Positions 62 to 16,192 of a stretch of 64,000 nt of DNA are shown here, piece after piece; positions within the stretch are counted from its first letter, which is position 1; each line of letters starts with the position of its first letter. Under the pieces are notes generated by a model. It searched no databases. It saw only the letters and a program-made list of their open reading frames with translations, and was not told the DNA's origin. A program made the position numbers and the translations under genes. This stretch comes from Microbacterium cremeum (lineage in GTDB: Bacteria; Actinomycetota; Actinomycetes; Actinomycetales; Microbacteriaceae), in NCBI RefSeq assembly GCF_015277855.1, contig NZ_CP063812.1, positions 3,596,001 through 3,660,000 on the forward strand, read 5' to 3'.

Positions 62-1042
62 CTACTGCTGCTGGATCAGCCGGTCGTAGTCGGGCGCGGT
101 CTCGATGTACTCGAACTCGACCGCGAGGGCGCCGAGGTCCTCGATGCCGGCGTCGCCGAGGTCCCACGTGAACGTCGGCAGCGTGATACCGGCCGCGGCC
201 TCCTCGGGGATCTCGAGGTTGGTCGCGATCGCGGCCCGCACGGCGTCCTCGTTGTCGGAGGCCCACTCCAGCGCCTCGGCCATCGCCGCGGAGTACGCGG
301 CGACGAGGTCGGGGTCCTCGTCCAGCAGGGCCTGGGTCGTGATGCTCGTGAGCACGGTGAGACCCGGGATCGTGGCCTGGTACGGCGCGACCACCGACAC
401 GCCGCCGGCGCCGAGGATCATGCCCCGGAACGGGTCGGGCGCCCACGCGGCGTCCATCGTGCCGGCCTCGAGCTGCGCCGGGACGTCGGGGAAGGCGACC
501 TCGACGAACTCGATGGTCGAGGGGTCGCCGCCGTCGTCCTGCACGGCCTTGCGGATGGTGAGGTCGCCGGCCGCGCCGAGCGTGTTGACCGACACCTTCT
601 TGCCGGCGAGGTCGGCGGGGCGGGCGATGCCGGAGTCGCCGAGCGCGACGACCGCGTTGACGTCGGTGCCGTCGGCGAGGCTGTTGGCGTAGTTGCCGAC
701 GATCACGACACCGAGGTCCTGGAGGTCGGCGCGGATGGGCCCGAACGGCTGTCCGATGGCGAACTGGATGTCGCCGCTGAGCAGCGCCGGGATGGCGTTG
801 GCGCCGCCCTGGGCGGGGACGACCTCGATCTCGAGGCCGTGCTCCTCGAAGATCCCTTCCTCCATCGCTGCCCACAGCGCGCCGGTCTCGGCGATGGGGA
901 GGGCGGCGACGCGGACGGTGGTGAGCTCTTCCGGGCCGGCGTCGCCGGTGGGTGAGTTCGACGGGGCGGCGGAATCGGTGCAGCCGCTCAAGGCGATGGC
1001 GGCGGCGGCGAGAACGCCGATGGTGGCAAGACTCTTCTTCAT
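62..1042 (-). CDS. ABC transporter solute-binding lipoprotein, SsuA/NitT/TauT type
   Basis: This is an extracytoplasmic substrate-binding lipoprotein of 326 residues. A short lipoprotein signal ends in the lipobox LSGC with the lipidated cysteine at residue 21. The mature part reads like the NMT1/SsuA family (AALPIAETGALWAAMEEGIFEEHGLEIEVV start, GDIQFAIGQP, then an APDPF segment), which binds sulfonates, taurine, nitrate, thiamine precursors or aromatic anions. No permease or ATPase gene follows before the terminator, so its transporter partners must lie elsewhere. It is divergent from the methyl-THF reductase/O-demethylase operon and shares a 329-bp promoter region with it, which makes uptake of an aromatic acid plausible but unproven. 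Confidence 0.8.
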   Translation of the reverse strand: MKKSLATIGVLAAAAIALSGCTDSAAPSNSPTGDAGPEELTTVRVAALPIAETGALWAAMEEGIFEEHGLEIEVVPAQGGANAIPALLSGDIQFAIGQPFGPIRADLQDLGVVIVGNYANSLADGTDVNAVVALGDSGIARPADLAGKKVSVNTLGAAGDLTIRKAVQDDGGDPSTIEFVEVAFPDVPAQLEAGTMDAAWAPDPFRGMILGAGGVSVVAPYQATIPGLTVLTSITTQALLDEDPDLVAAYSAAMAEALEWASDNEDAVRAAIATNLEIPEEAAAGITLPTFTWDLGDAGIEDLGALAVEFEYIETAPDYDRLIQQQ

Positions 1043-1371: not shown

Positions 1372-4690
<3,319 letters not shown>

Positions 4691-4863: not shown

Positions 4864-5445
4864 ATGAGTCTGCGATACGCGCTGCTGGCGATCCTGCGCG
4901 TCGGCCCGCTCTCGGGCTACGACCTGCAGAAGCAGTTCCACCAGTCCGTCGGGCACGTGTGGCATGCGCCGGACTCGCAGATCTACCCCGAGCTGCGCAA
5001 GATGGAGCAGCTCGGCCTCATCGAGGGCGAGGAGCAGCCGCGCGGCGAGCGCGGCACCCGCCGGCTCTATCACGTGACGGATGCCGGTGACCGCGCGTTC
5101 CTGGAATGGATGACGTCTGCGCTGGAGTATCAGCGCGTGCGCGACCCCGCACACCTGCGCGCGGCCTACCTCGAGACGACCACGCCGGAGGCCGCCCGCG
5201 CGTTCCTGGAGCGTCACATCGCGCAGTGGGAGGGCGAGCTCGCGCAGTGGGAGGGCGAGCTCGAGCGCATCGACGCGGTCGCGAACCCCATGCTGGTGCG
5301 GCGTCTGGCGGTGACCGCGGATGCCGACCGCGAGCGGACGATCGCCTACAAGCGCTTCGCGTACGAAGGCCTGGTCGAGCGGGCCCAGGGCGAGATCGCG
5401 TGGGCCCGCCGCGGGCTGGAGCTCGTCGAGCGCCTCCGCGCCTAG
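4864..5445 (+). CDS. PadR family transcriptional regulator
   Basis: A 193-residue PadR-like regulator. The N-terminal winged helix (residues 1-80) shows YALLAILRVGPLSGYDLQKQF, the DSQIYPELRKMEQLGLI recognition block and GTRRLYHVTDAGDRAF wing. The C-terminal part is a long helical dimerisation domain of the Vir/PadR-C type. The ATG at 4864 has AAGGGAG 6 nt upstream. PadR proteins often control phenolic-acid genes, consistent with the neighbours, but the target is unknown. Within the helical domain, 21 bp are perfectly duplicated in tandem (5221-5241 and 5242-5262), repeating AQWEGEL. Confidence 0.88.
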   Translation: MSLRYALLAILRVGPLSGYDLQKQFHQSVGHVWHAPDSQIYPELRKMEQLGLIEGEEQPRGERGTRRLYHVTDAGDRAFLEWMTSALEYQRVRDPAHLRAAYLETTTPEAARAFLERHIAQWEGELAQWEGELERIDAVANPMLVRRLAVTADADRERTIAYKRFAYEGLVERAQGEIAWARRGLELVERLRA

Positions 5446-5454
5446 GGTGGAGAC

Positions 5455-5991
5455 GTGCCGGACATCAACAGAGACCCCCGGGGGACTCCCGCGACCGATC
5501 GGCTCAACTACACGGCCTATCGACTCGCGCGTGCGCTGAACCGCGCCGCCGAGAACACCGCGCTCGCGCACGGAATCACGCTCCCGCAGCTGCTGATCCT
5601 GCAGGTGCTCGGCGAGGGGGTTCCACTGTCGAACGCGCAGGTCGCCCGGCGCACGTTCGTCAGCTCGCAGGCGGCGCACGTGGTCTCGGGCGAGCTCCTC
5701 GCGTCGGGGCTGATCGAACGGGTCGAGCACCCTACGAATCGGCGCGTGCGGCTGGTGCGGCTCAGCGAGGCGGGCTGGGCGACGCTCGCCGAGTGCGAGA
5801 GCGAGATCCGGGCGCGCGAGGATCGCCTCGCCGACGAGATCGGACCGGACCTGGGCGAGACGCTCGCCGAGATCCTCGAGCACGCCGCCGACGTGCTCGC
5901 CGGCGGGTACTTCGGCGACAAGGATGCCGAGGCGCAGGCGGTCGCACGGCGCCGGCGCCCCAGCAAGGGCGTCGGCATGGCGCCGGTCTGA
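5455..5991 (+). CDS. MarR family transcriptional regulator
   Basis: A 178-residue MarR-type winged-helix protein. The core runs from LNYTAYRLARALNRAAENTALAHGITLPQLLILQVL to the wing region ERVEHPTNRRVRLVRLSEAG (about 84-103), the hallmark DRR/NRR loop of the family. The GTG start is 9 bp after the PadR stop and is preceded by GTGGAGA, so the two regulators are probably co-transcribed. It converges on the MFS gene, which it may control. A basic tail (ARRRRPSKG) closes the protein. Confidence 0.85.
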   Translation: MPDINRDPRGTPATDRLNYTAYRLARALNRAAENTALAHGITLPQLLILQVLGEGVPLSNAQVARRTFVSSQAAHVVSGELLASGLIERVEHPTNRRVRLVRLSEAGWATLAECESEIRAREDRLADEIGPDLGETLAEILEHAADVLAGGYFGDKDAEAQAVARRRRPSKGVGMAPV

Positions 5992-5998
5992 CGCGACG

Positions 5999-7195
5999 TC
6001 ACGCGGTGGGGCGCCGGCCCGACCGGAGGCGCACGAACACCGCGCACGCGAGCGCCGCGGTTCCCCCGATCGCGAGGGCGGCCTGTCCGCCCGCCTCGTC
6101 GACGACCCACCCCATCACGAAGGCTCCGAACGGCACCATGCCGTAGTTGCCGAGCGTCACGAGCGACATCATGCGCCCGATGTGCTCTGGGGGGACGCTG
6201 ACCTGCGCGGCCGCGTTGAGCACGCCCTGGTAGTAGCCGACTCCGAGCCCGAGAGCCGGCCCGAGCGCGAGGAAGACCGGCAGGCCCGGCGCGACCGCGT
6301 TCGCGAGGAGCGCCAGGCCGAGTCCGGTGCAGGCGACGACGAGCGAGCGCACCGAGACGCTCGCGCGCCCAGCGGCGATGATGCCGCCGGCGATCGCACC
6401 GACTGCGTTGAGCGTGTGGACGACGCCCACCGCGGTCGCGTCGCCGTCGAAGGTGAGCGTCACGGTGGAGGTGAGCACGAGCATGAGGTTCAGCGCGAGC
6501 AGGGCGACGACGGCGTTCACGATGAGGAGGGTGACCAGTGCCGGGTCCCGCCCGACCCGGTACCTGTCTGCGCCCTCGTCCCGCCGGCGCACCTCGCGCG
6601 CGTGCAGTCGCGACGGACGGATGAGCACGATCGAGAGGAACACCAGCAGGAACGACGCCGCGTTGACGAGCATGCACGCCGTCGGGCCGAGGCTCTGGAA
6701 CGCGACGCCCGCGAGCCCCGGACCGACCGATCGCGCCGAGGCCAGCGCGATGGTGCTGAGCGAGACGGCCCGCCCCAGCTCGCCCGGGCCGACGAGCTCG
6801 AACACGATCGCCTGCGCGGCGACGCGCTCGAACGTGTGGACGGTGCCGAGCGCTGCGACCAGCGCGTAGAACACCGTCACCGGCGCGTCGGGGGTGAGCG
6901 TCGCCACCGCGAGTCCGCCGACGACGGCAGCCGACAGCAGCGACGTGATCAGCAGGATCGTGCGCGGGCGCACCCGGTCGGCGACGCGTCCTGCCGGCAC
7001 GCTGAGCAGCAGCAGCGGCAGGAACTGGGCGATCGTGACGCCGCTCAGCGCGCGGGCGCTGCCGGTCGCCTCGAGGACCACGAGCGACAGGGCGAGGTTC
7101 TGGAACCACGTGCCCGTGTTGGAGACGACCTGACCGCTGAAGTAGAGCGAGAACCGGCCGTTCGCGAACGGCTGGAACACGCCCCACGAGGTCAC
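5999..7195 (-). CDS. Major facilitator superfamily transporter (EntS/MFS_3-like)
   Basis: A 398-residue membrane protein with about twelve hydrophobic segments and the MFS loop GRVADRVRPRTILL (about 70-83). The opening FANGRFSLYFSGQVVSNTGTWFQNLALSLVV matches the MFS_3 group of exporters and drug/metabolite carriers. It starts with GTG only 4 bp after the stop of the cysteine-free dehydratase-like gene and is the last gene of the 14494-to-5999 cluster. Its direction of transport and substrate are unknown; context suggests a metabolite linked to the CoA chemistry of that cluster. Confidence 0.82.
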   Translation of the reverse strand: MTSWGVFQPFANGRFSLYFSGQVVSNTGTWFQNLALSLVVLEATGSARALSGVTIAQFLPLLLLSVPAGRVADRVRPRTILLITSLLSAAVVGGLAVATLTPDAPVTVFYALVAALGTVHTFERVAAQAIVFELVGPGELGRAVSLSTIALASARSVGPGLAGVAFQSLGPTACMLVNAASFLLVFLSIVLIRPSRLHAREVRRRDEGADRYRVGRDPALVTLLIVNAVVALLALNLMLVLTSTVTLTFDGDATAVGVVHTLNAVGAIAGGIIAAGRASVSVRSLVVACTGLGLALLANAVAPGLPVFLALGPALGLGVGYYQGVLNAAAQVSVPPEHIGRMMSLVTLGNYGMVPFGAFVMGWVVDEAGGQAALAIGGTAALACAVFVRLRSGRRPTA

Positions 7196-7199
7196 CGGA

Positions 7200-8459
7200 T
7201 CACGCGCGGGCGGGGACCCGGTCGCGCAGGAACGCCCCGATCCGCTCGCGCACGCCGGCGATGGATCGTGCGTCGGCGTTGCTGCCGCGGATCTCGAGAA
7301 CCGGGATGCCGCGTTCCTCGAGCGCCGCCGAGATCAGGGCGCCGCCCGGCGTGTCGTCGGCGACGAGATGCACGACGCCGTCCACACCGTGCCCCAGCGC
7401 CTCCTTGACGTACCAGGAGGACGACATCGGCGGCACGTACAGGAGGTCCGTCAGGCCCACGAACCGCGCCGCCAGGGCGCGCACCGGATCGTCCCCGTAC
7501 CGCGCGTACCCGTCCGCGGCGATCGCCAGGTACATCGACCACACGAACACCGCTCCGAACTCCTCCTGGAAGGCGCGGTACATCTCGAGGTCCGACCACA
7601 GTCCGCGGCCGATCCACATGAGCCGGCGTCGCTCGCCCGGCCACACGGCCACCCCCCGGCCGATGCGGTCGGCGACGTCGTCGTGGAGGCGCCGGGCGGC
7701 GTCCACGGCCCATCGGGTTCCGCGATGCCATTGCGGCACCATGACGCTCGGGATGATGTCGGTCACCGGCACGGGCAGCGGCCGCGCGGCGGCCAGCAGG
7801 TCGCGGGTACGCCGGTTCCACTCCGCCTGCTCGTTGGCCAGCGCCATCACCTCGGCCAGGCGTGCGCGGTCCAGGGCACGATCCAGGCGCTCCTCGAGCC
7901 AGGCGATGAGCTCTTCGATCTCTCCCTGCAGCAGGTCGATGCGCTCCGCCCCGAACACGTCCTCCCAGCGGTGGTCCACGAGGTCCCACCAGCCCTCCGG
8001 GGCGGGAACCGCGGCGGTGCGCGAGAGCAGGAAGGTCTCGGTGCCGGCGCGGCGGCCCCACTGCTCGAATATCTTGTGGGTGACGTCGCCGCCTCTCTCG
8101 GTGATCGCGAAGCGCGGCTCGGGCAGGCCGCCCCACGGCGCCCGGTCCGCAGGGAGGTCCTGGGCGCCGAGCGGGAGCACGTCGTACTGCCTGCTGTAGT
8201 CGGGCAGCCCGCGCGCGGCGACGGACCCGAGGCTGCCGGGTCCGGCGCGCTTGGCCGAGATGATCGACGACCACCACTGGTTGACGACGTACGGCACGCC
8301 GAGCGAGCGCAGCACCTCGTGCGGGGCATCCGCATTCGCCAGCGCGAGCGACTCCCCTCCGTCCACCCGCGCCGCCAGGGAATGGAACCACTCCCGCTGG
8401 TAGGCGGTGGCCTCGGCCGCGCTCGGCAGGCGATCGGATGCCGCGGTGCGCCCGGTCAT
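7200..8459 (-). CDS. 2-hydroxyacyl-CoA dehydratase/benzoyl-CoA reductase-like subunit without cysteines
   Basis: A 419-residue protein of the HgdB/FldC/BcrC fold family, recognised from GVPYVVNQWWSSIISAKRAG (about 54-73), the GDDPVRALAARF segment, and the C-terminal GIPVLEIRGSNADARSIAGVRERIGAF block that in true dehydratases ends GIPxLxLExD...RIxAF. Classical members hold a [4Fe-4S] cluster through cysteines; this protein contains no cysteine, so it cannot bind one in the usual way. Start ATG (8457-8459) overlaps the upstream stop by 4 bp. It presumably pairs with the next subunit. Whether it is a catalyst, a CoA-binding scaffold or a redox-independent lyase is open. Confidence 0.65.
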   Translation of the reverse strand: MTGRTAASDRLPSAAEATAYQREWFHSLAARVDGGESLALANADAPHEVLRSLGVPYVVNQWWSSIISAKRAGPGSLGSVAARGLPDYSRQYDVLPLGAQDLPADRAPWGGLPEPRFAITERGGDVTHKIFEQWGRRAGTETFLLSRTAAVPAPEGWWDLVDHRWEDVFGAERIDLLQGEIEELIAWLEERLDRALDRARLAEVMALANEQAEWNRRTRDLLAAARPLPVPVTDIIPSVMVPQWHRGTRWAVDAARRLHDDVADRIGRGVAVWPGERRRLMWIGRGLWSDLEMYRAFQEEFGAVFVWSMYLAIAADGYARYGDDPVRALAARFVGLTDLLYVPPMSSSWYVKEALGHGVDGVVHLVADDTPGGALISAALEERGIPVLEIRGSNADARSIAGVRERIGAFLRDRVPARA

Positions 8460-9499
8460 GCGGCTGCCGCTCCCGTCAGGTCGCGAGCCAGCTCCCGCAC
8501 GGCGCGCAGCTCGTCGCCCGGGTGCACGCGGGTCTGCACGTGCAGCGCCACCCCGATCTCGCCGAGGAGCTCGGCCTGATCGGGGACGTCCCACGCCGGC
8601 GCCTCGTCGAGTTCACGGATGACACCGCCGACGCCGCGCGCGGCGCCGAGCAGGGCGGTGTCGCGCGTGAGGAGCGCCCGCGCAGCGCTGGATGCCGTGG
8701 CCGACCCCCCGACGCGGTCAAAGTGCCGGTCGACGAGGCCGTCGATGGCCTCCTCGACCGTCGCCGCGTCGACCGCCACCCCGAGCCACGCGCCGTCGCC
8801 GGTGTCGTGATCCTCGCTGACGATGACGCAGCCCTGCTCTTCGAGGGCACGGTAGAGGCCGGCATCCGGGTGACTGGATCCGGTCAGATGAACCCGCACC
8901 GCCGTCTGCGGCACGTCGGAGCGCGCACCGTCGACGCGCACGACGGCGTCCGCAGGATCGAGGCGGGCGGCGTCGAGCAGGGCTTCGAGGGCGAGGGCTC
9001 CCGAGCACTGCGGCGGTTCGGCACGCCGACGCGCCCGCAGGCGCTCGAGCGCAGACCCGAGCGCACGCTCGGCGTCGGCGGACCTCGCGAGCGCCGCGGC
9101 GTCGAGCGCCTGCCCAGTGAGTCCCGTGAGGAAGGCGACGAGCCCCGCGAACTGGAAGCGCGCGAACCGCCGAGCTGCCGTCGAAGGCGCGCGCGGCAGG
9201 TCCACCAGGTGCAGCGGCAGCTCGGGGGCGATCGATCGCAGGACGTAGAACAGCCGCACGTTCGCCTGGCTGTCGGCGCACACGACGAGCGCGTCGCAGT
9301 CCAGGCGGCCCGCGCGCACCTGGCTCAGGATGCGTCCGGCGACGGCGTCCGCCGCTCCGAGGAGGTCGCGGGCCACCGGGTCGACGTCACCGGTCCACGA
9401 CCCGGTGACTCGATGCGGGGTCGCTCCGCTCGCGAGCACGAGCTGACGCGGGACGTCGTTCCCGACGATCCCGACCACCGGTCGCCGGGGCCGTGTCAC
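8456..9499 (-). CDS. 2-hydroxyacyl-CoA dehydratase-like second subunit
   Basis: A 347-residue partner of the previous protein, also of the HgdB/BcrBC family. VVGIVGNDVPRQLVLASGATPHRV at the N-terminus matches the family opening in which an active-site loop follows the first strand. DALVVCADSQANVRLFYVLR (about 75-94) keeps a cysteine at the place of a cluster ligand. Four cysteines occur in all, but they do not clearly match the three-ligand pattern. It starts with GTG overlapping the CoA-transferase stop (GTGA) and ends overlapping the next start. The short length suggests a reduced third domain. No HgdC/BcrAD-type activator ATPase is in the window. Confidence 0.6.
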   Translation of the reverse strand: MTRPRRPVVGIVGNDVPRQLVLASGATPHRVTGSWTGDVDPVARDLLGAADAVAGRILSQVRAGRLDCDALVVCADSQANVRLFYVLRSIAPELPLHLVDLPRAPSTAARRFARFQFAGLVAFLTGLTGQALDAAALARSADAERALGSALERLRARRRAEPPQCSGALALEALLDAARLDPADAVVRVDGARSDVPQTAVRVHLTGSSHPDAGLYRALEEQGCVIVSEDHDTGDGAWLGVAVDAATVEEAIDGLVDRHFDRVGGSATASSAARALLTRDTALLGAARGVGGVIRELDEAPAWDVPDQAELLGEIGVALHVQTRVHPGDELRAVRELARDLTGAAAA

Positions 9500-10740
9500 A
9501 GCACTCCGTCGCGCCGGAGCCCTTGCACGCGCTCGTCGTCGTAGCCGAGCAGCGCGCCCAGGACGTCGTCGGTGTGCTCGCCGAGGCCGGGAGCGGGTCG
9601 CGACAGGTCGACCGGACTGCGGGAGAAGACCACCGGCAGCCCGCTTCCGTACAGCCCCTCGAAGTGCCCGTACCGCGGATGCACGAGCGGCACGACCTCG
9701 CGCCGGCTGGTGACGATGTCGTCGCGCACCGCCGTGGCGGTGTCGCGCACCGGCGCCGCCGGGACGCCGTTGCGCTCGAGCGCCGAGAGGACTTCGGCGG
9801 TGGAGCGGGCGGCCGCCCAGTCCGCGATCATGCCGTGCAGCTGGTCGGCGTGGGTCACGCGCGCATCGCGCGAGGAGAACCGCGGGTCGTCGACCAGTTC
9901 CGGGGTGCCCATGGCGGCCAGCGTCCCCTCGGCGAACTGATCCGTCGGCGCGCAGATCGCGAACCAGCCGTCCGCCGCCTGGAAGGTGCCGAACGGCGCC
10001 AGCCGCGGGACGACGGCGCCGGTCCGCAGCGGGAACCCGACCGACTCCAGCGCGTCGAAGGGCTCGCACGCCACGAGCGACGTGAGGCTGCCGAGCATCG
10101 AGACATCCACGTGCTGCCCCTCGCCGGTGGCTTCGGCATCCATCACCGCCGCCAGCGTGCCGATCACCGCGAACAGCGGCGCGACCAGGTCGCCGATCGG
10201 AAGGCCGAAGCGGATCGGCGCGTCGCCGGGCTCGCCGGCGGTCATCATGACGCCACTGAGCGCCTGGATGATCGTGTCCATCGCCTTGCCGTCGCCCGGG
10301 ACGCCTTGCGCACCGAACCCGCTGATCGACGTGTAGACGACGCGGGGGTTCACCTGCTGCACCGCGGCATAGTCGATGCCGAGTCGTCGTGTCACGCCCG
10401 CGCTGTAGTTCTCGACCACGATGTCGGCGTTGCGCACGAGGTCGAAGAACACGGCGCGGCTCTCGGGATGCTTGAGATTGAGCGTGATGCTCTCTTTGCC
10501 GCGGCCGCGCGCCATCATCGACACCGACATGTCGTCGGGTGCGGAGCGGCGCATCTGCAGGCCGTCCGCGGTCACGTACGGCGAGTTGTTGCGCGACGAG
10601 TCGCCGCCGCGCGCGGGGTTCTCGACCTTGATCACCCGCGCGCCGAGGCTGGCCAGCAGCATCGTCGCGTACGGGCCCGCCAGGGCGGTGGTCAGGTCGA
10701 TCACGGTCTTGCCCGCGAGGGGCCCGTCGGTCGTGCTCAT
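9496..10740 (-). CDS. Family III CoA-transferase (CaiB/Frc/BaiF)
   Basis: A 414-residue CoA-transferase that would move CoA between a carboxylate and an acyl-CoA donor. The opening PLAGKTVIDLTTALAGPYATMLLASLGARVIKVE is diagnostic, as are NLKHPESRAVFFDLVRNADIVVENYSAGVTRRLGID and RFGLPIGDLVAPLFAVIG, where Asp184 should be the catalytic aspartate. The gene lies 1 bp after the CapA-like gene and overlaps the dehydratase-like gene. In anaerobes the pair CoA-transferase plus 2-hydroxyacyl-CoA dehydratase converts 2-hydroxy acids to enoyl-CoA; the same order here suggests activation of an imported acid to its CoA ester. Confidence 0.88.
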   Translation of the reverse strand: MSTTDGPLAGKTVIDLTTALAGPYATMLLASLGARVIKVENPARGGDSSRNNSPYVTADGLQMRRSAPDDMSVSMMARGRGKESITLNLKHPESRAVFFDLVRNADIVVENYSAGVTRRLGIDYAAVQQVNPRVVYTSISGFGAQGVPGDGKAMDTIIQALSGVMMTAGEPGDAPIRFGLPIGDLVAPLFAVIGTLAAVMDAEATGEGQHVDVSMLGSLTSLVACEPFDALESVGFPLRTGAVVPRLAPFGTFQAADGWFAICAPTDQFAEGTLAAMGTPELVDDPRFSSRDARVTHADQLHGMIADWAAARSTAEVLSALERNGVPAAPVRDTATAVRDDIVTSRREVVPLVHPRYGHFEGLYGSGLPVVFSRSPVDLSRPAPGLGEHTDDVLGALLGYDDERVQGLRRDGVL

Positions 10741-10741
10741 G

Positions 10742-11866
10742 TCAGTCTTCCTTCGTGCGGACGACGAGTCGATCGCCGTTCCATCGGAGCTCGGTGTCGA
10801 ACCCGGCCTCGCTCGTGATCCTCTGCAGGTACGCCGCGACCTCGCCGCCGCGTTCCGATCGGGCGACCGGGACGGGCCGGGCTTCGTCGTCGATCCAGCA
10901 GGGGATGAGGGATGCCTCGACCCGGCCGGCGTCGACGCTCAGCACGGCGATCGCGGTGTGGCGGCTCTCGGGGTGGAACGGGTACTCGGGCATCGCGGGG
11001 TCGGGCTCGAACCCGAAGACCCGGCGTCGCTCGCGCGCCCACGCGGTTCGCTCCGGCGCGTCGCCGGACGCGGCCGACAGCGCGCTCGTGATCGTCGCGA
11101 AGTTGCCGAGCCCGTGCAGGATCGGGCGGCCGCGGTACACCTCGACGCCCTTGAAGATGTGCGCGTGGTGGCCGATCACCGCCGTCGCCCCGGCATCGAC
11201 GGCCGCGTGGGCGATCTCCCGCTCGTACGCCGCGATGTCGACGGGCACGTGCACGAGCCCTTTGTGGAGGGCCACGATCACGGCATCGGCGCGGGCCGCG
11301 GCATCCGTCACCGCCGCCACGAACCGGCGCAGGCTCGAGGCCTCGGCGAACGCGTGGATTCGCGGCGGCCCGCCGGGGTTCGCCCCCCGCGGCTCGTAGT
11401 GGGTCACGACCTCGACGTACGCCGCACCGGGTTTGAGGGTCGTCGCCCAGCTCTCGCGAGGACCGACGCAGTTGACGCTCAGCACGGCGATGCGGGTGCC
11501 CGCGACCTCGACGATCTCCGGCTCGAACGCGTCGTCGATCGTCTCGCCGGTGCCGACGGTCCGCAGGCCCCGGTCGTGGCAGTGCCGCACCGTCTCGCGC
11601 ATGCCCTCGGCACCGAAGTCGTAGACATGGTTGCCGGCGAGGGTCAGGATGCCGAACCCGGCGTCGGCGAGCGCGTCGAGCGCCGACGGCGGGCCCGGCA
11701 CGGCCGGAACGTCGGTCGTCTGCACGACTCCGTCGTGCACATGCGGGATCTCCAGCTGCCCGATCACGAGGTCGGCGCCCCGCAGGGTGTCGGCCGCGGG
11801 AGCCAGCAGCGACCGCGCATCCTCGCGCTCGAGCACGAGGTCGCCGACGGCGTGGATCGTGATCAC
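10742..11866 (-). CDS. CapA-family metallophosphatase-like protein
   Basis: A 374-residue cytoplasmic member of the CapA/PgsA superfamily (calcineurin-like fold). It opens ITIHAVGDLVLE and carries GNH (TLAGNHVYDFG, about 75-85), the ALHKG segment and GHHAHIFKGVEVYRGRPILHGLGNF (about 218-242), all CapA signatures. Some relatives help make poly-gamma-glutamate, but this copy has no signal peptide or membrane anchor and no CapB/C neighbours. It starts with GTG, overlapping the ABC ATPase stop, and is followed after 1 bp by the CoA-transferase. It may hydrolyse a phosphate or peptide-like bond in the imported substrate; that is speculation. Confidence 0.8.
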   Translation of the reverse strand: MITIHAVGDLVLEREDARSLLAPAADTLRGADLVIGQLEIPHVHDGVVQTTDVPAVPGPPSALDALADAGFGILTLAGNHVYDFGAEGMRETVRHCHDRGLRTVGTGETIDDAFEPEIVEVAGTRIAVLSVNCVGPRESWATTLKPGAAYVEVVTHYEPRGANPGGPPRIHAFAEASSLRRFVAAVTDAAARADAVIVALHKGLVHVPVDIAAYEREIAHAAVDAGATAVIGHHAHIFKGVEVYRGRPILHGLGNFATITSALSAASGDAPERTAWARERRRVFGFEPDPAMPEYPFHPESRHTAIAVLSVDAGRVEASLIPCWIDDEARPVPVARSERGGEVAAYLQRITSEAGFDTELRWNGDRLVVRTKED

Positions 11867-12669
11867 GCGGCGTCACCGGCGACGCCCGCCGACGTCCGCG
11901 TGAGGAACGCGCGCAACCGCGTGGACTCGGGGCGGTCGAAGAACTGCGCGGACGGCCGGTCCTCGATGATCTGACCGTCGGCCATGAACACGCACCGGTC
12001 GGCGGCGTTGCGGGCGAACTCCAGCTCGTGGGTCACCACGATCATGGTCATGCCCGACTCGGCGAGGTCCTTCATCACCTGCAGCACCTCGTCGACGAGC
12101 TCGGGGTCGAGCGAGCTCGTCGGCTCGTCGAACAGGAGGATCCGCGGGTTCGTGGCCACCGCGCGGGCGATCGCGACGCGCTGCTGCTGACCGCCGGAGA
12201 GCTGGCGCGGGTGCGCCTGCGCCTTGTCGGCGAGGCCGACGCGGTCGAGCAGCTCGATCGCGCGGGCCCTCGCCTCGGCGGGCGGCACCCCGTGCACCTT
12301 GATCGGCGCCTCGGTGATGTTGCGCAGCACGGTCCAGTGCGGAAACAGGTTGAACTGCTGGAACACCATGCCCATGCGGCGCTGCTGGCGCTTCACGTCG
12401 GCGTCGGCGAGGGGACGGATGCCGTCACGATGGCGTTCGTAGCCGAGCAGTTCGCCGTCGAGGTACATCGCGCCGCCCTCGATCGTCTCGAGCTGGTCGA
12501 TGCAGCGCACGAGCGTGGACTTGCCCGAGCCCGAGGGGCCGAGCACCGCCACGACCTCCTGCGCGTGCACCTCGAAGTCGACTCCGTCCAGAGCGACGTT
12601 GTCGCCGTACGTCTTGCGCAGTCCGACGACCTGGAGCACGGGCGTCACCGACGCGTCTTCGCGGGTCAT
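11863..12669 (-). CDS. Polar amino-acid-type ABC transporter ATP-binding protein (GlnQ-like)
   Basis: A 268-residue ATPase with Walker A GPSGSGKST (about 41-49), Q-loop VFQQFNLFPHWTVLRN, signature LSGGQQQR (about 152-159), Walker B ILLFDEPTSSLD (about 171-182) and the switch histidine in VVTHE. The sequence follows the GlnQ/HisP group. The ATG overlaps the permease stop by 4 bp. It energises the permease and binding protein upstream and is translationally coupled to both neighbours. Confidence 0.93.
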   Translation of the reverse strand: MTREDASVTPVLQVVGLRKTYGDNVALDGVDFEVHAQEVVAVLGPSGSGKSTLVRCIDQLETIEGGAMYLDGELLGYERHRDGIRPLADADVKRQQRRMGMVFQQFNLFPHWTVLRNITEAPIKVHGVPPAEARARAIELLDRVGLADKAQAHPRQLSGGQQQRVAIARAVATNPRILLFDEPTSSLDPELVDEVLQVMKDLAESGMTMIVVTHELEFARNAADRCVFMADGQIIEDRPSAQFFDRPESTRLRAFLTRTSAGVAGDAA

Positions 12670-13589
12670 GCCGCCGCCTCCGTCCGCTCGACGACGCGCC
12701 GGGCGACCGCCGCGCGCGACATGCCCTTGCTGAAGTGCCGCTCGACCCGCCGCTGCACGAGCGTCAGGGCGGTGACGACCACCAGGTACCAGATCACCGC
12801 GACCAGGAGCATGGGCACCACCTCGTACGTGCGGTTGTAGATGACCTGCACCGAGTGCAGCAGGTCGCCCATCGCGATGACGCTCACGAGCGAGGTTCCC
12901 TTCATGAGAGCGATGACCTGCGACCCCGTCGGCGGGATGATGACGCGCATCGCCTGCGGCAGCACGACGCGGGTGAACGAGTGCCAGCGGCTGAAGCCCA
13001 TTGCGGCGGCCGCGTCGCGCTGGCCCGAGTCGACCGACAGGATGCCGGCGCGGATGATCTCGGCCATGTACGCCGCCTCGTGGAGCGACAGGCCGATGAT
13101 CGCCGCGGTGAGCGGGGTGATGAGGTCGTTCGTCGGCCAGCTGAACAGCTCGGGGCCGAACGGCACCCCCACCGCGAGACGCGGCAGCAGGTAGGCGAGG
13201 TTGTACCAGAAGATCAGCTGCACCAGCGGCGGGACGCCGCGGAAGACCCCGACGAACACGATGCACGCCCATCGCAGCGGCCGGAACTCGGTGAGCTGTC
13301 CGGCCGCGAGGGCCGTGCCCAGGAGCGACCCCAGCACCATGCCGACGATCGTGAGCATGATCGACATGCCGAGCCCGGTGAGCACGCTCGGGTTGAAAAG
13401 GTACTCGGCGACCACGGGCCAGTCGAATCGCTCGTTGGTGGCGAGGAAGACGACGATCTGCACCGTGACGACGACGAGCAGGATGCCGACCACCACCCGC
13501 CACGGGTGGATCCGGCGCCGGGCCAGAGCCGCGTCGATCGAGCGATCGGCCGACGGGTTGCGCACCGGCTGGGTCGTCAGGTCTGTCAT
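12666..13589 (-). CDS. Polar amino-acid-type ABC transporter permease
   Basis: A 307-residue inner-membrane permease of the HisM/GlnP family with about six membrane segments. The EAA loop is visible as QRDAAAAMGFSRWHSFTRVVLPQAMRVIIPP (about 195-225). The first 25 residues are cytoplasmic. The ATG at 13589 is used because the binding-protein stop lies 3 bp upstream; an in-frame GTG two codons earlier is possible. Only one permease gene is present, so it probably acts as a homodimer. Confidence 0.92.
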   Translation of the reverse strand: MTDLTTQPVRNPSADRSIDAALARRRIHPWRVVVGILLVVVTVQIVVFLATNERFDWPVVAEYLFNPSVLTGLGMSIMLTIVGMVLGSLLGTALAAGQLTEFRPLRWACIVFVGVFRGVPPLVQLIFWYNLAYLLPRLAVGVPFGPELFSWPTNDLITPLTAAIIGLSLHEAAYMAEIIRAGILSVDSGQRDAAAAMGFSRWHSFTRVVLPQAMRVIIPPTGSQVIALMKGTSLVSVIAMGDLLHSVQVIYNRTYEVVPMLLVAVIWYLVVVTALTLVQRRVERHFSKGMSRAAVARRVVERTEAAA

Positions 13590-13591
13590 CG

Positions 13592-14494
13592 TCACTCGCT
13601 GCTCATCGGGTTGAGCGTGGGCGTGTCGACGGCCGCGTCCTCGATGCCCCACTCGGTCATGATCCGGTCGTACTCGCCGTTGGCGAAGATCGCCTCGAAG
13701 GCGGCGAGCATCGGCACGGCGAGTCCGTTGCCCTTGGGCATGAACAGGGCCAGCTGGTCGACGCCGGCGCCCTGCTCGTCGGACTGGAGGAGGAACTCGT
13801 ACCGGCCGGGGTCGGACGCCTGCAGGTCGATCGCGGCGGACTGCGTCGTGCCGGCGTAGTCGGCGCGGTCGGAGTTGACTGCGAGGAAGGTGGCGTTGCT
13901 GTCCTCAAGGCCGATGAACTCTGCGGGATCGAGTCCCTCGGCGGCGCACCACTCGTTGTAGCGGGCGAGCTGGCTCTCGGTCACAGACCCGGTCACGCCG
14001 GCCACGCGCGCGCCGCACAGCGCCTCCGGGTCGCTGAGCTCGTCGGCTCGTTCGGCGAGGTAGACGTACGAGGTGCGCGTGGTCATCCACACCACCGCGT
14101 CGAAGTCCTCCTCCCGCTCGGGCGTGGTGCGGACCGGGCCGTTGAACGCGTCGAAGCGGCCCGACAGCATGCCGGTGAGCATGGCGTCCAGTCCCGACGC
14201 CGTGATGATCTCGAACGGCACGCCGAGCTGCTCCGACAGCGCTGCCTGCAGATCGGGGTCGATGCCGGTGATCTCGCCGCCCTCCTCGATCGTGCGGTAC
14301 GGCGGGTGGGTGTCGCCGGCGATCTTGATGACGCCGGCTTCCTTGATCGCGTCGGGCAGCTGGTCGTAGAGCGGGGCTTCACTCGCGGCATCCGTCTCGG
14401 CCGGCTCGGCCTGCGAGGCCGGCGACGAGCAGCCGGCGACGAGACCGAGGACCAGAAGCGGGGTGAGGGCGGCAAGGCCTTTGGAGGTGCGCAT
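13592..14494 (-). CDS. Amino-acid-type ABC transporter solute-binding lipoprotein
   Basis: A 300-residue SBP_bac_3-type binding protein with lipobox VAGC (Cys22). The mature domain shows IKEAGVIKIAGDTHPPYRTIEEGGEITGIDPDLQAALSEQLGV and LTGMLSGRFDAFNGPVRTTPERE, the usual ligand-pocket segments of polar amino acid binders, although the residues that usually clamp an alpha-amino/carboxyl group are changed (GPVRTTPERE instead of agmTiTpeR). First gene of the CoA-transferase/dehydratase-like cluster, so its ligand is probably the substrate of that pathway. Confidence 0.88.
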   Translation of the reverse strand: MRTSKGLAALTPLLVLGLVAGCSSPASQAEPAETDAASEAPLYDQLPDAIKEAGVIKIAGDTHPPYRTIEEGGEITGIDPDLQAALSEQLGVPFEIITASGLDAMLTGMLSGRFDAFNGPVRTTPEREEDFDAVVWMTTRTSYVYLAERADELSDPEALCGARVAGVTGSVTESQLARYNEWCAAEGLDPAEFIGLEDSNATFLAVNSDRADYAGTTQSAAIDLQASDPGRYEFLLQSDEQGAGVDQLALFMPKGNGLAVPMLAAFEAIFANGEYDRIMTEWGIEDAAVDTPTLNPMSSE

Positions 14495-14550: not shown

Positions 14551-14582
14551 ATCATAAAAGTTGATGATTGAGAATTTCAACT
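14551..14582 (-). promoter_or_regulatory. Promoter and operator for the ABC/CoA-transferase/dehydratase-like cluster
   Basis: On the minus strand, TTGAAA (14575-14580) and TATGAT (14551-14556) are 18 bp apart. An inverted repeat AGTTGA (14559-14564) / TCAACT (14577-14582) overlaps the -35 box and spacer. The same core, ATCAACTA, recurs in front of the secreted hydrolases at 20090 and 39504. The rest of 14495-14761 holds no gene. Confidence 0.6.
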
Positions 14583-14761
14583 ATCAGTTTGTCATGGGTC
14601 GGCTGCAGTGCGGCGGACTCCCGCCCTGGTCGTGGTCGCCGACGTCGTCTCGGCTCCTCCACAGGTGCTGTCCGCGGAGGTGGCGGATAGGTTCTACACA
14701 GTCTGGTTTCGAACGCTGATCTGGGGGTTTGAATGTCGGAGGCCCCCGTCAGAATGGGTGT

Positions 14762-16192
14762 ATGACCGACCTCGCCGACGCTCTGAAAGAGCTCGGCGAT
14801 GCGCTCGCGAAAGTGGCGGCGGCGGCGGTCGCCGAAGGTGGCCTGCGGCTGACGGACGACGTCGACGTGATGGGCGCGCTGGCGTCGGCGGGCCGGATCC
14901 GGCGGACTGCGGAGGCGGTCATGGTCGAAGCGGTCGCGGTGATCGTCGACCGCGACGGCCGCACCGGGCATGCCGACCGCATCACGACGCGATACGGATG
15001 CCGCAACACCGGCGAGCTCGTGCAGCGGGCGACGCGGGTGTCAGGGCGGACGGCGTCCGAGATCCTCGCTGCGGTAGGCGCGGTGCAGCAGCCGGTCGCG
15101 CTGTCGACCGGTGAAGTGCTCCCCGCGCAGTACCCCGGGATGCGCGAGGCGCTCAGTGCCGGGGAAGTCGGGATCGACGGCGTGAGCGCCGTCGCCGGCG
15201 CGTTCCGCGGCTGCCAGGCCGGGCGGGCCGAGGTTCTCGCCGCCGACACCGAGCTGGCCGCTGCCGCGCGTGGCGAGGGGGCGGATGCCGCACCCCCGGC
15301 GTCGGCGGATGAGCTGCGCGCTCTCGCGCAGGTGTGGGCGGCGTACCTGGATCAGGACGGCGCCGAACCCGACGACACCAGGGCGCTCCGCCGGCGCGGT
15401 CTCACCATCGGGCGCCGCGGCGATGACGGCCTCGTCCCCCTGCGCGGTCGACTGCTGCCCGAGGTGGCGGCGCAGTTGCAGCTCGGCGTCGACAGCGTCC
15501 TCAATCCGCGCGTCGACGGGGCGCCGGCTCCGGGGCCCCGTTTCGTCGACGACGCGGAGCAAGACCAGGCCGAGCCGGTGGCAGGCGCCGCCGACCAGCG
15601 CAGCCACAGCCAGAAGCAGCACGACGCGTTGGCGGTGCTGCTCACCGCGGCCGCGGCATCCGGCCGGCTGCCGACGCTGGGTGGGGCCGCACCCACGCTC
15701 GTCGTGTCGGTGCGGGCAGAAGACCTCGCCTCCGACCGGGGTCGCGCCCACCTGCCCGGCGACGACCAGCCGATCCCGCTCGCGGCCGCCCGCCACACCG
15801 CCTGCACCGGCGCGGTGCAGCGCGTCGTCGTGGGCGAAGGCGGGCGGGTCGTGTCGATCACCACGCTGGACCGCATCTTCAACCACCACCAGCGCAAGGC
15901 GATCACCCTCAGAGACGGCGGATGCCTCATCCCCGGCTGCCAGGTGCCGCCCCAGTGGTGCGAAGTGCATCATGTGGAAGAGCATTCGCGCGGCGGCCGG
16001 ACCCACACCGACAACGGCGTGCTGCTGTGCTGGTTCCACCACCGCACCATCGACACCGGCGGGTGGCACATCCGCATGATCGACGGCATCCCCCACGTGC
16101 GAGGGCCGTACTGGTGGGACCACACCAGGCGATGGCGCCCCGCAACGAAGTCCCCCACCCGCCGGCGCGATCTCATCGCGATGCGGACGTGA
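14762..16192 (+). CDS. DUF222 and HNH endonuclease domain protein (13E12 repeat type)
   Basis: A 476-residue protein of a type abundant in actinobacteria. An alanine-rich DUF222 region (about 1-330) is followed by an HNH nuclease motif: DGGCLIPGCQVPPQWCEVHHVEEHSRGGRTHTDNGVLLCWFHH (about 383-425), with two CxxC-like pairs and the catalytic HH. Mid-protein acidic linker EQDQAEPVAGAADQRSHSQKQHDAL is typical. The ATG at 14762 is preferred over an upstream TTG since the DUF222 similarity begins there. The biological role of the family is unclear; it stands alone, divergent from the ABC cluster. Confidence 0.88.
   Translation: MTDLADALKELGDALAKVAAAAVAEGGLRLTDDVDVMGALASAGRIRRTAEAVMVEAVAVIVDRDGRTGHADRITTRYGCRNTGELVQRATRVSGRTASEILAAVGAVQQPVALSTGEVLPAQYPGMREALSAGEVGIDGVSAVAGAFRGCQAGRAEVLAADTELAAAARGEGADAAPPASADELRALAQVWAAYLDQDGAEPDDTRALRRRGLTIGRRGDDGLVPLRGRLLPEVAAQLQLGVDSVLNPRVDGAPAPGPRFVDDAEQDQAEPVAGAADQRSHSQKQHDALAVLLTAAAASGRLPTLGGAAPTLVVSVRAEDLASDRGRAHLPGDDQPIPLAAARHTACTGAVQRVVVGEGGRVVSITTLDRIFNHHQRKAITLRDGGCLIPGCQVPPQWCEVHHVEEHSRGGRTHTDNGVLLCWFHHRTIDTGGWHIRMIDGIPHVRGPYWWDHTRRWRPATKSPTRRRDLIAMRT

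Follow-up and report, generated by a model that had tools for sequence, protein, structure and literature searches.

A conserved actinomycete operon joins a CoA-transferase to 2-hydroxyacyl-CoA dehydratase-like proteins without the usual cluster cysteines

The known 2-hydroxyacyl-coenzyme A (CoA) dehydratases, such as HadBC and FldBC, have cluster cysteines and an activase, and FldBC works with the CoA-transferase FldA. The class I benzoyl-CoA reductases BzdNO and MbdNO have cluster ligands and genes for PQ-type ATPases. We analysed a 64,000-nucleotide stretch of the Microbacterium cremeum genome (contig NZ_CP063812.1, positions 3,596,001 to 3,660,000; hereafter the window), where a minus-strand run of eight genes (window positions 5999-14494) encodes two proteins of this fold family next to a CoA-transferase. 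Unlike HadBC and FldBC, the pair comes without cluster cysteines or activase, and the operon adds an adjacent importer and a CapA-like gene. Its best matches in the PDB are the N and O subunits of benzoyl-CoA reductases, yet it shows neither their cluster ligands nor their PQ-type ATPase genes. The Cou pathway of Rhodococcus jostii RHA1 (CouLMNO, CouR) follows a comparable logic, with CoA activation and a MarR regulator, although the operon enzymes belong to other Pfam families and the MarR protein is nearer to HcaR than to CouR. LigM, of the LigM/DesA type of tetrahydrofolate-dependent O-demethylation, adjoins the operon, but the genes are separate and on the opposite strand. We propose, with a probability of about 0.5, that the operon is a dedicated unit for the uptake and CoA-dependent degradation of an aromatic carboxylic acid of the phenylpropanoid type, derived from plants or lignin, in actinomycetes, hosts that we take to be aerobic.

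The initial annotation had described eight minus-strand genes that overlap or nearly touch, and the coordinates bear this out: four junctions are overlaps of 4 nucleotides and three are spacers of 1-4 nucleotides, with the starts as we chose them. Each gene family that it had named was also matched in Pfam, some scans using a longer mechanical open reading frame (ORF) in place of the chosen gene. The first gene encodes a solute-binding protein of the SBP_bac_3 family (13592..14494, 64.0 bits) with a lipobox recognised by eye. It is followed by an ATP-binding cassette (ABC) permease of the polar amino-acid type (12666..13589; BPD_transp_1, 86.0 bits), an ABC ATPase (11863..12669; ABC_tran, 117.6 bits), a CapA-like metallohydrolase-like protein (10742..11866; PGA_cap, 179.2 bits) and a family III CoA-transferase (9496..10740; CoA_transf_3, 365.9 bits). 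Then come the two HGD-D proteins, the BzdN/HadC-like subunit 1, without cluster cysteines (8456..9499), and the BzdO/MbdO/HadB-like subunit 2, cysteine-free in this copy (7200..8459). The last gene, variable among relatives, encodes a major facilitator superfamily (MFS) transporter (5999..7195; MFS_3, 106.3 bits). HGD-D (PF06050) was matched twice, with 68.0 and 107.7 bits against a cut-off of 28.4, and these two genes are its only matches in the whole genome (one contig of 3,982,951 bases, 99.98% complete).

We checked whether the pair might belong to an unrelated fold. Both subunits carry the HGD-D profile above its curated cut-off, and single-chain structure predictions give both the HadBC/BzdNO fold. 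The best sequence match in the PDB is an N subunit (BzdN) for the profile of one and an O subunit (MbdO) for that of the other; the named proteins most closely related to subunit 2 come from Microbacterium. Cluster positions were taken as the residues, numbered as in the window's proteins, at which cysteines of the solved chains, presumably the cluster ligands, fall in the profile alignments. For subunit 1 these are residues 51 and 77 (BzdN, HadC and MbdN) and 298 (BzdN and HadC; MbdN does not cover it). Residues 224-240 were rejected as the third ligand region, given that the HadC and BzdN alignments point to 298. For subunit 2 they are residues 90 and 124 (MbdO and BzdO; HadB does not cover them) and 369 (MbdO). 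HMMER places the third cysteine of BzdO and HadB one residue after 369; we preferred 369 because the preceding His then aligns in all three.

The cysteines are replaced at nearly all of these positions throughout the actinomycete sequences, of which 79 for subunit 1 and 83 for subunit 2, the window's included, passed fixed length and score limits. Residues 51 and 298 of subunit 1 are Asp in 79/79, and residue 77 is Cys in 50, Ser in 28, the window's among them, and Thr in 1. Cys is absent from residue 90 of subunit 2 (Glu in 44, Arg in 21, Leu in 10, Gln in 4, Val in 2, Tyr in 1, Asp in 1), residue 124 is Gly in 82 and Ala in 1, and residue 369 is Asp in 83/83. Indeed, 12 of the 83 subunit-2 proteins, including the window's, contain no cysteine at all. 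Since most ligand positions are now occupied by other, invariant residues, the pattern points to an altered active site rather than to decay; a decaying pseudogene was rejected in view of the many positions that are invariant between genera.

The initial annotation had also noted the absence of an HgdC-type activator, which stands at the level tested: the activase model TIGR00241 had 0 matches in the 3.98-Mb genome and matched 6 of 14 control genomes, 5 of them over the cut-off. No P/Q-type ATPase subunits were found in the operon; the P and Q families were not searched singly, the genome-wide search being that with TIGR00241. A complete activator and cysteine set was thus sought, and the activase is without a match in the genome while the cluster cysteines are replaced; on these grounds a radical dehydratase served by a distant activator was rejected as the principal explanation. 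One account (PMC11574389) describes alpha-hydroxyl removal as needing a ketyl radical from Fe-S clusters and an ATP-driven activase. Such a reaction is therefore unlikely here, unless the active site has found another way. We consider it very likely that the chemistry of the pair is independent of an activator and lies outside the classical radical route.

Scanning genome contigs for subunit 2 gave 304 confirmed relatives, of which the best 80, all from actinomycetes, were kept as loci (L-numbers). Neighbours were counted by membership in BLASTP clusters (>35% identity, >60% query coverage) within flanks of at most 10 kb, shorter at contig ends. All seven genes other than the MFS gene occur together in 63/80 loci, so the operon is not a chance assembly, and the gene order, which we sought in the relatives, is nearly constant. 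Taken singly, the CoA-transferase is present in 78 loci, subunit 1 in 76, subunit 2 in 79, the CapA-like gene in 69, the solute-binding protein and the permease in 67 each, the ATPase in 65 and the MFS gene in 26. The CoA-transferase and both subunits are found jointly in 76/80, and in the other four the set is cut, broken or missed by the gene caller: L029 and L040 lack a called CoA-transferase, and L017, L029, L030 and L040 a called subunit 1, the causes being a short contig (L040), broken frames (L030, L017) and the gene caller (L029). At the ORF level, subunit 1 was matched in L029, L030 and L017. In Nesterenkonia pannonica (L030) several operon genes are broken across two frames, and in Microbacterium elymi (L017) a 650-residue protein (P0059) joins a piece of subunit 1 to subunit 2; either case may reflect assembly error or real decay.

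Departures from the usual order are few. The CapA-like gene is divergent in L027 and the importer in L019, and the MFS gene sits between the transferase and subunit 1 in L048, L064 and L073. An oligopeptide/nickel-type ABC system takes the place of the importer in five loci (L037, L038, L042, L043, L045), and another ABC set does so in two (L032, L044), with a cytochrome P450 gene beside the transferase. The distribution is patchy: subunit 2 was found in 6 of 394 genomes of the class, the unit in 1 of 12 same-genus genomes of that sample (M. cremeum itself included), and at family level 6 of 199 genomes match, one (E 6e-4, 24% identity) not being counted. A one-strain curiosity was nevertheless rejected on account of the 304 relatives and the conservation over 80 loci.

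The unit also occurs on plasmids, where seven records (four Novosphingobium, two Croceicoccus and one Rhizobium) encode a subunit 2 with 35-38% identity. We inspected four of these regions, three from sphingomonads (L098, L099, L100) and that from Rhizobium (L101). By annotation the three sphingomonad regions contain TonB/TRAP uptake genes, CapA, a hypothetical protein where subunit 1 would be expected, a CoA-transferase of ~695 residues, subunit 2 and a second CoA-transferase. On the ES2-1 plasmid, profiles identify the hypothetical protein as subunit 1 (60.9 bits) and find two transferase parts in the 695-residue protein; hydrolases there match neighbour clusters of the actinomycetes (CocE 42%, PETase-like 34% and alpha/beta hydrolase 45% identity). 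The Rhizobium version, by the look of its ORFs, also appears to have two transferase genes. Asp298 and Trp303, unlike Asp51, are shared by all four subunit-1 sequences from Proteobacteria; the Rhizobium subunit 2 has Cys at none of positions 90, 124 and 369.

The partners of the pair appear, by the look of their sequences, to be functional. Nine residues of the CapA-like protein that we take to be metal ligands (D9, E39, N79, H80, D83, H201, H233, H234 and H236) are invariant in 70/70 sequences, and Asp184 of the CoA-transferase, presumably the catalytic Asp of family III, is conserved in 76/76. The top scores of this transferase in NCBIfam are with succinate-glutarate and mesaconate CoA-transferases, every one under its cut-off. 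In polar amino-acid binding proteins, as we assume, an Arg binds the alpha-carboxylate and an Asp the alpha-amine. In the operon's solute-binding protein Arg127 (TPER motif) is invariant in 69/69, and Thr217 stands, again in 69/69, at the position that is Asp in AncCDT-1, AncQR and 2yln in our alignments. With the Arg kept and the amine Asp replaced, the substrate of the importer is probably a carboxylic acid that lacks an alpha-amino group. The earlier label of an amino-acid importer thus holds for the family and not for the binding site.

The operon borders an aromatic-catabolism island with pca, pobA-type, cou-type, ligM, P450 and PaaX genes. On the plus strand beside it lie LigM, a vanillate/3-O-methylgallate O-demethylase (3281..4690; NF047885, 867.9 bits, cut-off 580), a weakly matched MetF-like gene (43.5 bits), a PurU gene that passes its cut-off and, as context only, a PadR-family regulator (4864..5445, matches under the NCBIfam cut-offs). 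The 30 kb upstream of the window (L096 and L097) encode both protocatechuate dioxygenase subunits (165.9 and 340.7 bits, over their cut-offs) and a 4-hydroxybenzoate monooxygenase-type protein (486.7 bits, subfamily cut-off 351). A pcaB-like gene there scores 331.6 bits, under the cut-off of 355.75, and 373.3 bits with the nitrosuccinate lyase model, likewise under that model's cut-off. A carboxymuconolactone-decarboxylase-family gene, an acyl-CoA dehydrogenase, a P450, a reductase and ABC systems accompany them, as do couR-, couN-, couO- and couM-like genes with a CoA ligase, and a PaaX-type regulator that misses the NCBIfam cut-off (97.6 bits) but exceeds those of three Pfam PaaX domains. 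The cou identity rests on R. jostii, in which the MarR protein beside the same-cluster homologues is the CouR of 5cyv (287.4 bits). The CouO-like gene lies 22.6 kb from the operon. CouO is described in PMC4737184 as an amidohydrolase-superfamily enzyme of the last step of p-hydroxycinnamate side-chain removal.

Similar neighbours were found in part of the other loci: within the flanks of the 80, CouO occurs in 16, at least two cou-type genes in 18, LigM in 8, P450 in 15 and a CocE/S15 hydrolase in 14. In class-wide searches (394 genomes each, from the same draw) subunit 2 was found in 6 genomes (E <=1e-30) and CouO in 66 (E <=1e-70), and all 6 genomes with subunit 2 also have CouO. With M. cremeum itself excluded, a co-occurrence of 5/5 has a chance of ~1e-4 if the genomes are independent, which genomes are not. 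In one of them (G336) the two genes are ~1 kb apart. On the Croceicoccus plasmid the next genes are annotated as acetate-CoA ligase family, p-hydroxycinnamoyl-CoA hydratase/lyase and aldehyde dehydrogenase. Thus two hydroxycinnamate routes, cou-type in actinomycetes and hydratase/lyase in Croceicoccus, stand beside the unit in two phyla.

A MarR-family regulator (5455..5991, plus strand) is convergent with the operon. Its best solved relative is HcaR (52 bits), the CouR structure 6c28 giving 22.6 bits, and its cluster (c6) is present in 32/80 loci; PaaX is found in 51 and one of the two regulators in 73. Aligning the upstream regions of close relatives revealed an operator-like palindrome, TAGTTGA-N5-TCAAYCA, ahead of the solute-binding protein gene (14562..14586), which overlaps a promoter-like TTGA...TATGAT. 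The pattern does not recur exactly anywhere else in the genome, where the second-best site differs by 2 mismatches; with <=3 mismatches allowed there are 10 genome matches, against 2 for a reversed control pattern. The core TTGA-N5-TCAA lies 82-108 nucleotides before the first gene in 9 of the 79 loci with a usable start. Eight of these belong to the 32 loci with the window-type MarR and the ninth is L012, whose contig ends just past the operon; among the 40 loci with PaaX alone the core was found in none. The MarR protein is a candidate reader of the palindrome.

From what was computed (operon, fold, ligand loss, lack of an activase match, catalytic residues of the partners, and context) we infer the substrate class, the order of steps and a non-radical reaction. 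Judging from its binding site, the ABC importer would bring in a carboxylic acid without an alpha-amino group, which the CapA-like metalloprotein might trim or epimerise. The family III CoA-transferase, a role based on its family and the presence of the catalytic Asp, would then move CoA from another thioester to this acid. The BzdN/BzdO-like pair, with its predicted fold, would bind the thioester and carry out a non-radical, activator-free elimination or lyase step at the old cluster site, where the ligands are replaced by the conserved Asp51 and Asp298 of subunit 1, and by Gly124 and, most consistently, Asp369 of subunit 2. To go by the neighbours, the product, at its simplest hydroxycinnamoyl-CoA or an aromatic acid, would enter the cou-type, ligM, pobA-type and pca genes. 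The operon may be switched on by MarR, or by PaaX in other genera, presumably via an aryl-CoA ligand. The course read earlier from the gene order (import of an acid, activation to a CoA ester, then a further reaction) is supported by our results. A role in aromatic-acid catabolism we regard as likely; that the specific product is hydroxycinnamoyl-CoA is doubtful.

Several observations weigh against this proposal. The substrate comes from the neighbours alone, and 62/80 loci are without two or more cou-type genes within the available flanks. The co-occurrence test is small and uncorrected for kinship and genome size; of the five other class genomes, four have subunit 2 and CouO on separate contigs, and CouO is matched only in part in G286, over residues 8-206. 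Some versions are accompanied by MmgE/PrpD genes, mandelate-racemase-like genes or other transporters, so the substrate may differ between lineages or be a dicarboxylate. The palindrome core is missing from 24 of the 32 loci with the window-type MarR and is therefore a feature of the nearer relatives (eight Microbacterium and one Nesterenkonia). As for the pair itself, the sphingomonad subunit 2 (L098, L099, L100) retains Cys at two of the three positions (90 and 124, but not 369), and it is possibly an evolutionary intermediate or the holder of a different metal site. Cysteines are also common off-site (residue 273 of subunit 2 in 58/83 sequences and its residue 228 in 35/83; residue 285 of subunit 1 in 36/79), which leaves room for another metal or cluster, and cluster ligands other than Cys exist, according to PMC11574389.

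The pair might be an aryl-lactyl-CoA dehydratase, an aerobic counterpart of FldABC, in which case an aryl-lactate would be CoA-activated, dehydrated to hydroxycinnamoyl-CoA and passed to the cou genes. A family III CoA-transferase with two HGD-D subunits repeats the three-part logic of FldABC, hydroxycinnamate genes lie near part of the loci, and one homologue (P0027) is named '(R)-phenyllactyl-CoA dehydratase alpha subunit' by its source. Against this explanation stands the requirement of alpha-hydroxyl removal for an Fe-S radical mechanism and an activase, as given in PMC11574389, whereas the cluster cysteines are missing here and the activase is without a match in the genome; we consider the explanation unlikely.

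Alternatively, the substrate would be a branched or aryl-substituted dicarboxylic acid, isomerised by MmgE/PrpD and activated on one carboxylate by the CoA-transferase, the pair then cleaving or rearranging the mono-thioester. MmgE/PrpD genes lie near the unit in L038, L054 and L101, and by annotation in L099 and L100, and the top NCBIfam scores of the transferase, although under cut-off, are with succinate-glutarate and mesaconate CoA-transferases. An MmgE/PrpD enzyme is described in PMC12290011 as isomerising methylsuccinate for an itaconate CoA-transferase. However, among the relatives' gene calls the Novosphingobium PrpD has homologues in no more than two gene clusters, present in 2 and 3 loci. 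No gene listed for L096, L097 or the first 20 kb of the window matches these clusters, and aromatic genes are commoner as neighbours. We judge a dicarboxylate substrate to be rather improbable.

The pair could also be no enzyme alone, serving the CoA-transferase as an allosteric subunit or as a partner that binds the CoA ester. Its joint occurrence with the transferase in 76/80 loci and the loss of the catalytic metal centre would fit such a role; the fixed polar residues at the old cluster site (D298 in 79/79 and in 4/4 Proteobacteria) suggest an active site instead, and the sphingomonad versions, and Rhizobium likewise by the look of its ORFs, have two transferase genes. This role has little probability in our estimate. 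An operon for the fermentation or degradation of amino acids, whose radical dehydratase would have unusual cluster ligands and whose activator would be encoded elsewhere or be of unknown type, agrees with the families of the importer and the subunits and is very improbable, given the amine-binding Asp lost in 69/69, TIGR00241 unmatched in a 99.98% complete genome and the aromatic island alongside.

Other features were observed around the unit. A protein that we take to be of HNH-type, with repeats (window 14762-16192), adjoins the operon, and its cluster (c29) is present in 5 loci. Tau/Ssu-like ABC genes, with binding proteins recognised by look, lie next to LigM and P450 (window 62-1042 and L097) and may encode additional importers of aromatic acids. 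The dihydroxyacetone-kinase family (567.7 bits) and the PaaX type are each represented by a gene in that neighbourhood. The CoA-transferases of the Rhizobium version are preceded (L101, 7942-10517) by genes for a mandelate-racemase/muconate-lactonising-type enzyme and for an MmgE/PrpD protein. CapA-like genes travel with MmgE/PrpD in L038, L054 and L100, and a second CapA-like copy occurs in L054, L070 and L100. In actinomycetes (L038, L054, L070) oligopeptide-type ABC genes join this set, a separate module beside the unit.

The families of the fold, the CoA-transferase and the importer are already known. What appears to be new is a conserved branch of the fold in aerobes, free of the cluster ligands and probably tied to phenylpropanoid catabolism; its extent is given by the 304 genome stretches found and the 83 subunit-2 proteins examined. 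The initial annotation knew of no described pathway with this gene set, and in searches of an open-access library, judged by the titles and abstracts of the papers listed, we likewise found no description of the operon or the branch; PMC12753220, for one, deals with piperine catabolism and has no bearing on it. For the family as a whole we put forward, tentatively and at less than even odds, a cluster-free, oxygen-tolerant branch in Actinomycetes and Alphaproteobacteria that may cleave C-O or C-C bonds of aryl-CoA by acid-base or single-metal chemistry, with no ATP or activator, in the aerobic breakdown of plant phenolics. As the operon is compact and resides in named, cultured species, M. yannicii (L013) and R. 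jostii (L034) among them, the question is directly testable. If our proposal is true, the names '2-hydroxyacyl-CoA dehydratase' and '(R)-phenyllactyl-CoA dehydratase' would be wrong for this branch. The operon would then show the HGD-D fold working without radicals, the fold and its CoA-transferase partner retained and the ligands given up, and it could fill a gap in the degradation of lignin- and phenylpropanoid-derived acids by aerobic soil bacteria.

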